Shown: positions 61,528 to 64,000 of the stretch, piece by piece
Numbering within the stretch: the first letter of the stretch is position 1
Layout of the letters: the number at the start of each line of letters is the position of its first letter
Assembly: GCF_001894925.1 (NCBI RefSeq)
Contig: NZ_BCXD01000005.1
Span: 124,001-188,000, forward strand
Origin: Rhodococcus rhodnii NBRC 100604
Lineage (GTDB): Bacteria > Actinomycetota > Actinomycetes > Mycobacteriales > Mycobacteriaceae
DNA: 64,000 bases
Direction: 5' to 3'
Made by a program: the position numbers and the translations under genes
The notes under the pieces: generated by a model
Databases searched by the model: none
What the model was told of the DNA's origin: nothing
Seen by the model: only the letters and a program-made list of their open reading frames with translations

Positions 61528-61600
61528 GGGGCTATGGCGCAGCTGGTAGCGCACCACACTGGCAGTGTGGGGGTCAGGGGTTCGAGTCCCCTTAGCTCCA
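61528..61600 (+). tRNA. tRNA-Ala (GGC)
   Basis: A 73-base cloverleaf: acceptor GGGGCTA/TAGCTCC with one G-T pair, anticodon loop CTGGCAG giving GGC, T-arm with GGTTCGAGTCC. CCA is not encoded. It borders the lower-GC tail of the window that carries recombinase remnants. Confidence 0.95.
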
Positions 61601-61611
61601 CCCCGCGCACA

Positions 61612-62539: not shown

Positions 62540-63718
62540 TCAGCCGGGAGGTGTCACCGTGCTGGTCCGGTGCGCAGAAGCTGACGCGGCACTCCATAGA
62601 ACGATGGCGAGGAGTACCAGCACGGCGCTGACGATGACAGGTCCGCGAACGCCGATGGACTCGATGGCGAGGCCGCCGATGACTGGTCCGATGACGGCGC
62701 CGACGTTCAGCGCCACGGTCGCGAAGGAGCCTCCCATTGTTGGGGCGTCGTGAGCGGTGGCGATGATTCGCGCGATGAGCGTGCTGCCCAGCGCGAAGGC
62801 CAGTGCTCCTTGGATCAGGGCGAGTGGCCAAAGGGCGAGCGGGCTGGTGACGGTCAGTGCGAGCAGCCCCCAACCGGTCATCAGTAAGGGCCCGGTCCCG
62901 AAGATGAGGCGCCGCCAGTGTCGGTCGCCGAACCTGCCGGCTGTGTTCACTCCGAGGAAGGCGCCGATGCCGAACACCGCTAGCAGGGCTGGTACGGCTC
63001 GTTCGGTGAGCCCTGCGGGGCCGGTGGCGATCGCCGCCAGGTAGATGAAGGTGCAGAAGGTGGCAGCGTTGATGAGTGCCGCCATGACGATGTTCAGCTG
63101 GACCGGACGGGTGCGCAGGCTCGCCAGTTCGCGACCGACGGTGCCAGGTGCGCCGCGCTCCGAGACTTCGGCAGGGCGGGTAGGTGTGGTGGCCAGCACT
63201 GCGACGAGAGCTGGCAGGCAGAGCACAGCGATGAGCCAGAGGGTCGAACGCCAACCGAGCAGTTCACCGACCAGGGCTCCGGCCGGGACTCCCGCGATCA
63301 GTGCGAGTGTGGTGCCTCCGAGGATGATCGCCAGGGCGCGAGTGTGGCGCTCTACGGGGACGATCCGAGTCACGGTGGAGAGTGCCACCGCGAGGAACCC
63401 CGCGTTCGCGAGTGCGGCGCCGACGCGGGAGATCAGCAGGACGGCGAAGCTGTCGGTGACAGCGCCAACGACGTGCGCGATGATGAATAGCGCGAGGAAG
63501 CCGGTCAAAGTCCAGCGCGGGGAGACTCGGCGAGCAGCACCAGCCATCACCGGTGCGCCGATCACCATCCCTAGGGCGAAACCAGAGGTGAGGAGCCCGG
63601 CCTGGCCGAGCGAGACCTCTAGCTCCATGGCGATGCCGGGCAGGAGTCCGGCCAAGACGAATTCAGAGGTTCCTTGGGCAAAAACGGCAACAGCAAGTAG
63701 GTAGAGAAGTGCGGGCAC
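62540..63718 (-). CDS. Cml/Cmx-like MFS chloramphenicol-type efflux protein
   Basis: A 392-residue, 12-helix exporter close by eye to the Cml/Cmx chloramphenicol efflux proteins of Streptomyces and Corynebacterium: FAQGTSEFVLAGLLPGIAMELEVSLGQAGLLTSGFALGMVIGAPVMA, RVGAALANAGFLAVALSTVT, and APTMGGSFATVALNVGAVIGPVIGG. GTG at 63718 follows GGAAGG by 7 bases; that site lies in a hairpin whose other arm is the end of a leader ORF. The region is visibly lower in GC than the flanks, and recombinase remnants lie on its other side, suggesting horizontal gain. Activity on chloramphenicol is inferred. Confidence 0.85.
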   Translation of the reverse strand: MPALLYLLAVAVFAQGTSEFVLAGLLPGIAMELEVSLGQAGLLTSGFALGMVIGAPVMAGAARRVSPRWTLTGFLALFIIAHVVGAVTDSFAVLLISRVGAALANAGFLAVALSTVTRIVPVERHTRALAIILGGTTLALIAGVPAGALVGELLGWRSTLWLIAVLCLPALVAVLATTPTRPAEVSERGAPGTVGRELASLRTRPVQLNIVMAALINAATFCTFIYLAAIATGPAGLTERAVPALLAVFGIGAFLGVNTAGRFGDRHWRRLIFGTGPLLMTGWGLLALTVTSPLALWPLALIQGALAFALGSTLIARIIATAHDAPTMGGSFATVALNVGAVIGPVIGGLAIESIGVRGPVIVSAVLVLLAIVLWSAASASAHRTSTVTPPG

Positions 63719-63728
63719 AGGTATGCCT

Positions 63729-63784
63729 TCCGAAGCAAGAGGGCCAGAGCGGGGGTGCGTATGGCACTACCGGGGTGCTTCGGA
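63729..63784 (-). promoter_or_regulatory. Ribosome-binding-site-masking hairpin of the efflux gene
   Basis: In the mRNA, TCCGAAGCA (63776-63784) pairs perfectly with TGCTTCGGA (63729-63737). The 3' arm overlaps the first bases of the efflux gene's GGAAGG (63726-63731); the 5' arm overlaps the final Ser-Glu-Ala codons of the leader ORF. A ribosome stalled near the leader's end would open the stem and free the ribosome binding site. Confidence 0.65.
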
Positions 63785-63940
63785 TGCGCAGGAAACAGAC
63801 GTCGCCACTGGCCGCAGCATGGGAGCGGCGGGAACCGTTAGGCGATGAGCTGGGGCATCTGGGGCTACCGGTAGACCGGTAGCCCTGGCGTGTCTGCTTC
63901 GGGTGACCTCATACGCCAAGCCTAGCAACCGATCGCGCAT
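63767..63940 (-). CDS. Leader ORF of the efflux gene (57 codons)
   Basis: ATG at 63940 follows GGAGGAG by 1-3 bases, and the frame reads MRDRLLGLAYEVTRSRHARATG ... CASEAPR, stopping with TAG at 63767, 48 bases before the efflux start. The peptide has no known family. Its end forms the 5' arm of the masking hairpin, so its translation, rather than its product, is probably what matters. The spacing to the Shine-Dalgarno is short, so a slightly different start is possible. Confidence 0.5.
   Translation of the reverse strand: MRDRLLGLAYEVTRSRHARATGLPVAPDAPAHRLTVPAAPMLRPVATSVSCASEAPR
63863..63884 (-). repeat. Perfect 10-bp inverted repeat inside the efflux leader
   Basis: GGCTACCGGT (63863-63872) and ACCGGTAGCC (63875-63884) with a 2-base loop, within the leader ORF. 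It may act as a pause or attenuator hairpin, or as an operator. Confidence 0.6.
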
Positions 63941-64000
63941 GCTCCTCCGAGCAACCAGGCGATGGCCCGCGGGGCCGCAGATTGACAACTCCGCGCGAGG

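Follow-up and report, generated by a model that had tools for sequence, protein, structure and literature searches.

A probably leaderless reading frame and a predicted translational attenuator upstream of Cmx/CmrA-type chloramphenicol exporter genes

How could the translation of a chloramphenicol exporter gene be held back and then released when its Shine-Dalgarno (SD) sequence lies in an RNA stem, and which upstream open reading frame (ORF) would serve as the sensor? The question is raised by a locus of Rhodococcus rhodnii NBRC 100604, contained in a 64,000-nucleotide (nt) stretch of contig NZ_BCXD01000005.1 (the window; coordinates are those of the window, and features lie on its minus strand unless indicated otherwise). 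The gene at 62540–63718 has a GTG start and encodes a Cmx/CmrA-type chloramphenicol efflux protein of 392 amino acids from the major facilitator superfamily (Pfam MFS_1). An original prediction made from the sequence had called the gene Cml/Cmx-like, and the protein indeed scores 449.2 bits against NCBIfam NF033135, the family of Cmx/CmrA exporters (cut-off, 400 bits). The same prediction had placed a translational attenuator with a 57-codon leader ORF in front of the gene. Translational attenuation is borne out by covariation and by a conserved leader, but the leader ORF proposed was the wrong one. We consider it likely that region 63912–63719 is a translational attenuator sensing chloramphenicol, or another drug that stalls ribosomes in the same context, by means of a leaderless leader ORF.

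A conserved and probably leaderless leader ORF

The SD of the efflux gene, GGAAGG (63726–63731), is located 7 nt before the GTG at 63718. A perfect stem of 9 base pairs (bp) over it had been described originally, and we find it exactly so: TGCTTCGGA (63737–63729, hereafter segment 4) is complementary to TCCGAAGCA (63784–63776, the anti-SD arm of segment 3) and hides the SD by pairing with it. A perfect stem of at least 9 bp over the SD arose in 40 of 20000 base shuffles. Folding of the region, which had been proposed as a check, gave z = -1.76 for a 261-nt segment (11 of 200 shuffles as stable) and z = -2.25 for a 101-nt segment (3 of 200), so that the stem and the local fold over the SD are moderately more than chance. 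A 10-bp perfect inverted repeat farther upstream is likewise present as described. Its arms, GGGCTACCGG (63885–63876, segment 1) and CCGGTAGCCC (63871–63862, segment 2), are seen in sequence, folding and alignment as the 5′ and 3′ arms of a leader hairpin, the latter holding the leader stop codon.

To define the leader, we collected 89 entries (88 homologous loci and the window) with at least 44% identity, which yielded 80 non-identical upstream regions. One of these (L014) is the upstream region of L104 with a misplaced efflux start, leaving 79 distinct regions; near-identical regions (such as L037/L040 and L039/L041) were kept. Picked by its peptide motif alone, with no TANNNT rule, a short leader ORF is found in 77 of the 79 distinct upstream regions of Cmx/CmrA-type genes, a degree of conservation consistent with a role in translational attenuation. 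The two regions that lack it are L073, cut by a contig end, and L119, whose efflux gene has an in-frame stop. In the window the leader comprises 15 codons, MRSPEADTPGLPVYR followed by a stop (63865–63912). The 64 distinct natural leader peptides that we counted mostly begin with M-S-S-P-E-(A/S)-(D/S), and position 6 is occupied by Ala, Ser or Thr in 77/77 leaders. Codons of both types, TCN and AGY, encode Ser2 and Ser3, an argument for coding selection on the leader peptide. No leader was seen in the 32 loci below 44% identity (at most 42.4%).

Three classes of leader can be defined, namely, class A (15 codons, the type of the window), class B (mostly 21 codons, Cmx-like) and class C (mostly 9 codons, with a long untranslated region). 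In L028, a short unit resembling CTGATCCACTGTTTGCAA is repeated in tandem and stretches the leader to 33 codons. The Cmx genes of the Corynebacterium plasmids pTP10 and pXZ10145.1 (L037 and L040) are preceded by a class B leader, MSSPESDRSGVVGHTASPLNH, 7 nt upstream of which is a -10-like TAGAGT; this leader is missing from the feature tables checked, which are incomplete.

The leader of the window is preceded by a -10-like TAGGCT with TGC before it (63919–63924), 6 nt upstream of the ATG. TANNNT is found 6–8 nt upstream of 77/77 peptide-picked leaders, compared with a background of 138 out of 12145 ATG/GTG codons in the same loci. Its spacing to ATG starts is 7 nt in 48 cases, 6 nt in 8 and 8 nt in 1, and to GTG starts 6 nt in 13 and 7 nt in 7. 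SD-like GGAG, GAGG or AGGA precedes 2/77 leaders (75/77 are without it) and 57/77 efflux starts. The finder behind the spacing and SD counts favoured TANNNT starts and demanded A/S/T at residue 6; other scans were therefore used for the claims on residue 6 and TANNNT. No sigma-70 consensus pair was found upstream of the leader, and the promoter there is a putative one. Since the leader has no SD and starts 6 nt after TAGGCT, it is probably leaderless, with the 5′ end of the transcript placed by the -10 spacing. In mycobacteria, many messages are leaderless, and leaderless upstream ORFs have been proposed to act there as attenuators (PMC4633059).

The conserved residue 6 suggests where a ribosome would stall. 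In a scan that left residues 5–8 free and required TANNNT 5–8 nt upstream, Pro at residue 4 and one of a few residues at position 3, a single ORF was obtained in each of 76 out of 80 regions (the L014 duplicate among the 80), with Ser (38), Ala (37) or Thr (1) at residue 6; two further leaders have Thr (L023) and Ala (L079). Chloramphenicol, like linezolid, stalls ribosomes best when the penultimate residue is Ala, and less so with Ser or Thr (PMC8987054), and a similar stalling context is given in PMC10192921. On the cmlA leader (crb motif KNAD), the drug-arrested ribosome holds Asp8 in its P site, and Lys9 is the A-site residue (PMC11190716). The penultimate A/S/T of such a crb-type stall is matched at residue 6 in 76/76 leaders of the free-residue scan, with residue 7 being Asp in 45/76 and residue 8 Arg (41) or Lys (14) in 55/76. 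The predicted stall site is thus codon 6 (GCA, penultimate Ala) and codon 7 (GAC, Asp in the P site) at 63892–63897, a position to which residue 6 conservation, folding and likeness to cmlA all point. Chloramphenicol would be the drug sensed, and induction of the exporter gene the predicted outcome.

Alternative RNA helices and the proposed switch

Segment 2 can also pair with segment 3, in a helix (2:3) that brackets the anti-SD arm on both sides and that the original prediction had missed, as it had the leaderless start. One strand, CTACCGG (63868–63874), is complementary to CCGGTAG (63767–63773), the 3′ flank of the anti-SD arm, and the other, GATGC (63855–63859), to GCATC (63783–63787), the 5′ flank. 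Two alignments were used, A1, covering 69 of the 77 leaders, and A2, comprising 12 class A sequences. A2 leaves out L011, which has no middle arm, L073, which is cut by a contig end, L119, whose gene contains an in-frame stop, and L014, together with the looser relatives L107, L074, L015, L108, L019, L026 and L116. In A2, 93.8% of cells are paired in 2:3 (60/60 in the 5′ flank and 89.3% in the 3′ flank), 3 of 12 pairs are changed on both sides and the covariation score is reached in 0/500 shuffles. A compensatory example is GACAC:GTGTC in L012. For 3:4, 96.3% of cells are paired and 4 of 9 pairs are changed on both sides (0/500 shuffles), whereas slid controls pair 19–52% of cells. The perfect SD stem is 8–10 bp long in 10 of the 12 class A sequences, including that of the window, and 4 bp in the other two. 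Both folding and covariation therefore place the SD of the efflux gene in an RNA stem, as in a translational attenuator.

As related sequences can exceed shuffles, most weight is given to permutation tests, in which cognate partners were compared with partners taken from other sequences and the pairings 1:3, 2:4 and 1:4 served as negative controls. In class A (n = 13, A2 and L119), 2:3 was matched by 0 of 20000 permutations and 3:4 by 3, while 1:3 (4101), 2:4 (2333) and 1:4 (5466) were no better than permuted; segment 1 pairing with segment 3, tried as the alternative structure, was rejected on this count. In class B, where 33 of the 36 sequences could be used (L028, L113 and L121 lack the segment 3 pattern), 2:3 was matched by 4/20000 permutations and the controls 1:3, 2:4 and 1:4 by 8499, 14546 and 13007. 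A search of 63000–64000 against Rfam 15 returned 0 matches up to E = 1.

The leader codons CCC GAA GCA were also considered as a second anti-SD copy, CCGAAGCA being present twice in the window sequence, in the leader and in segment 3. The leader copy ignores changes in segment 4 (e.g. in L104), and we therefore treat it as a consequence of SPEA coding. L011 may be an exception. Its shortened leader region is without the middle anti-SD arm, and the leader codons CGAAGCAGA can pair with TCTGCTTCG beside the SD; in this sequence, stalling of the ribosome could by itself expose the SD.

Folding of the nascent RNA agrees with a switch driven by a stalled ribosome. We modelled a ribosome on codon 7 by covering the first 34 nt and scored 2:3 as formed when it had at least six expected pairs. 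In nascent RNA ending before segment 4, 2:3 forms in 1/12 class A and 10/33 class B sequences when the RNA is free, and in 12/12 and 33/33 with the ribosome in place; for the window sequence, expected pairs rise from 0.0 to 18.8. The best P-site codon for 2:3 is 6–8 at footprints of +14 and +16 and 5–7 at +18. Thus, two lines of evidence, the A/S/T at residue 6 and the footprint folding, meet at codon 7. In full-length class B RNA, 2:3 wins in 27/33 sequences when stalled and in 6/33 when free.

The mechanism that we propose draws on leader conservation, on the covariation of 3:4 and 2:3 and on the in silico nascent folding shown here, from which we infer the transcription start, leader translation, stalling, the identity of the drug, kinetic trapping and induction. 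The first transcribed nucleotide would be the A of the leader's ATG (63912), as placed by the -10 spacing, and ribosomes would load on the 5′-terminal start codon. With no drug, the ribosome would traverse the leader and exit at the stop codon inside hairpin 1:2, which would re-form, leaving segment 3 to pair with segment 4 and hide the efflux SD. With the drug, the ribosome would stall with Ala6 penultimate and Asp7 in the P site, and its leading edge would open segment 1 and free segment 2. The latter would then pair with both anti-SD flanks in segment 3 before segment 4 is made, so that the SD would stay open and the exporter would be translated.

Several results weigh against this mechanism. 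Equilibrium folding of the full leader of the window gives an SD unpaired probability of 0.19 when free and 0.20 when stalled on codon 7. On stalling, the class means go from 0.25 to 0.27 in A and from 0.32 to 0.31 in B, and the probability more than doubles in 1/12 class A and 4/36 class B sequences (all 36 of class B entered this accessibility test). In full-length class A RNA, 2:3 wins in 3/12 sequences when stalled, the window sequence not among them, and in 2/12 when free. Class B shows no covariation of 3:4 (9978/20000 permutations as good), segment 4 barely varying there, and hairpin 1:2 covaries weakly in both classes (1182/20000 in A and 580/20000 in B). Of the A2 results, the three double-sided changes of 2:3 were reached by 14/500 shuffles, and further pair types by 410/500 for 2:3 and 75/500 for 3:4. 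Moreover, L011 is without the middle arm, and in the window leader Asp7 is followed by Thr8, not by Lys or Arg. Since equilibrium folding fails to show the switch in class A, the model needs co-transcriptional trapping, and we infer that 2:3 would be trapped kinetically during transcription. Overall, the alternative pairing appears to be supported by covariation and nascent folding, and for the window sequence appears unsupported by equilibrium folding of the full RNA.

Competing explanations

The original prediction had taken as the leader an SD-led ORF of 57 codons (63940–63767), the last codons of which form the anti-SD arm, so that a stall near its end would open the SD. The ORF exists (ATG 63940, TAG 63769–63767), is preceded by GGAGGA, overlaps the anti-SD arm and stops 48 nt short of the efflux start. 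None of the other 11 class A sequences that we inspected shares both its start and its stop, and its stop in the window hinges on two extra bases in A2 (CCCC versus CC); L012, the sole other class A sequence that stops before the efflux gene in this frame, has a different start. Moreover, ATG 63940 lies upstream of the conserved -10-like element and 28 nt upstream of the predicted transcript start, and the conserved 15-codon leader would be left unexplained. Because the 57-codon ORF is unconserved and starts upstream of that transcript start, we judge it not to be the leader, and an attenuator built on it is highly improbable. Equally hard to credit, and if anything more so, is a reading in which a transcription factor binds the 10-bp palindrome as its DNA operator and the pairing in the RNA is a by-product. 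CTACCGGTCTACCGGTAG is palindromic at the DNA level, but its sequence shifts between classes with pairing kept (6/8 pairs are changed on both sides somewhere), segment 2 co-varies with segment 3, which begins 77–126 nt downstream, and the leader peptide is encoded across the palindrome.

Attenuation might instead be mainly transcriptional, with the stalled ribosome blocking a terminator or a Rho-dependent stop between leader and gene and the SD stem being secondary. Leaders of drug-resistance genes can combine mechanisms, as in cplR (PMC10201436) and vmlR (PMC9226507), Rho-dependent stops are invisible in sequence, and a weak terminator-like site is present at 63819–63803. This site is the sole one in 63650–64000, where 0.3 +/- 0.6 are expected from shuffles, neither 1:2 nor 3:4 is followed by a U run in the window sequence, and the SD lies within the 3:4 stem, which is conserved and covaries. 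The additional transcriptional step that had been suggested for the second repeat finds no support from a terminator in this sequence, the repeat being the attenuator hairpin 1:2 and the terminator-like site falling within shuffle expectation. We regard a mainly transcriptional switch as rather improbable. About as unlikely, or slightly less so, is that another signal is sensed, either a different drug with an A/S/T context (of oxazolidinone type) or general translation stress, and that chloramphenicol is incidental. The penultimate Ala/Ser/Thr context is common to linezolid (PMC8987054), but the strong matches to the element are tied to the Cmx/CmrA exporter clade (see below) and the Ala/Ser-Asp of the predicted stall is that of the cmlA site. 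Translational attenuation in response to chloramphenicol, or to a drug of the same context, thus remains the reading that we favour.

Distribution, descent and known systems

When 394 genomes of the same bacterial class were searched with a covariance model of the leader and its hairpin (R1), using filters that lose some weak matches, 44 matches reached E <= 1e-5. Forty of these strong matches are upstream of listed exporter genes, one precedes a further cmx-like gene (G462) and three are orphans (G258, G394 and G384; loci L128, L129 and L131) that are not followed by an intact cmx-like gene, a picture that would fit loss of the exporter gene and retention of the leader. None of the 44 precedes a gene of another class; of the weaker matches, the one looked at (G199) lies at the start of an unrelated coding gene. 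Conversely, among the best 43 protein matches (at least 255 bits), 38 have a strong R1 match in place, two have one at E of about 1e-4 (G249 and G329) and three have none (G122, its upstream region cut by a contig end, G269 and G204).

In a protein tree of 108 rows, 75 of them labelled with the element, the element rows are confined to one clade of 76 with support of 100, which fits a single gain of the element. L079, the one unlabelled row of this clade, has a leader farther upstream, MSSPEASRS at -423, with TAGCCT 7 nt before it. The clade includes Mycobacteriaceae, Nocardiaceae, Corynebacteriaceae, Micromonosporaceae, Glycomycetaceae, Nocardiopsidaceae, Thermomonosporaceae, Micrococcaceae, Brevibacteriaceae and Microbacteriaceae. 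The closest efflux relatives found, at 79–73% identity, include proteins of Agrococcus, an uncultured Microbacterium, Pseudactinotalea and Micromonospora.

A gene above the NF033135 cut-off was found in just 1 of 27 other genomes of the same genus searched (G016, with the class C leader of L041), which fits acquisition of the efflux gene from outside the genus. A recombinase zinc-ribbon frame (Pfam PF13408, 61592–62095) is located between the efflux gene and a transfer RNA (tRNA)-Ala gene (61528–61602, plus strand), and this neighbourhood suggests that the gene arrived on an integrative element; a search in L003 for an att-type repeat of the tRNA-Ala end found none. The genome holding the window is 4.46 Mb in size, with genomes of the genus reaching about 10 Mb, and the tag of its transfer-messenger RNA is ADSNQRDYALAA.

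The switch resembles several known systems. In attenuators of the cat-86 type, the SD of a gene for chloramphenicol resistance is freed by a ribosome that the drug has stalled on the leader, as we propose here, but that gene encodes an acetyltransferase and its SD is hidden in a simple stem, as opposed to the 1:2/2:3/3:4 switch. The ermC attenuator follows a four-segment scheme and has an SD-led leader. In ermC, too, a stall on the leader leads to an alternative structure that frees the SD (PMC5418344); it differs in sensing macrolides and controlling a methylase gene, and in the present case the anti-SD arm ends up in an internal loop of 2:3. The cmlA leader attenuator serves export of the same drug and shares a short leader with penultimate Ala and P-site Asp (KNAD, PMC11190716), whereas here, judged by description, the leader looks leaderless, the hosts are actinobacterial and a helix flanks the anti-SD arm. 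The leaderless cysteine-rich upstream ORFs of mycobacteria (PMC4633059) are likewise proposed attenuators of actinobacteria, but the response proposed for them is to cysteine, and the portion of that source available to us describes no drug and no SD switch. The Cmx/CmrA exporters, cmx of Corynebacterium plasmids and cmr/cmrA of Rhodococcus, belong to the same downstream family, and L037 and L040 carry the leader. The literature searched, available to us in part and with the original cmr, cmx and Streptomyces cmlR papers outside it, describes neither this leader nor its leaderless form nor the two-part helix, and the element was not found in the available portions of PMC3350403, PMC1590026 and PMC4347946. 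Mechanisms of this type are already known; what looks new is the leaderless sensor, together with the breadth of its distribution and the two-part helix.

Tentatively, and with more doubt than the attenuator itself, we suggest that this is an old switch, gained once with the exporter clade and now present in at least 10 named actinobacterial families, in which a leaderless ORF would be the sensor, a ribosome stalled at the extreme 5′ end of the message the signal and a two-part helix straddling the anti-SD arm the answer. A leaderless start may aid sensing, because 70S ribosomes load on a 5′ AUG independently of an SD and could continue to occupy the leader while the drug disturbs ordinary initiation. 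With 64 different leader peptides found in nature, both the predicted stall site and the alternative helix are open to direct tests. If the proposal is true, it would provide a clear case of a leaderless ORF acting as a drug sensor, and the exporter family, including the plasmid-borne corynebacterial Cmx, would share a single old drug-responsive RNA switch, so that exposure to low levels of the drug would raise exporter output.

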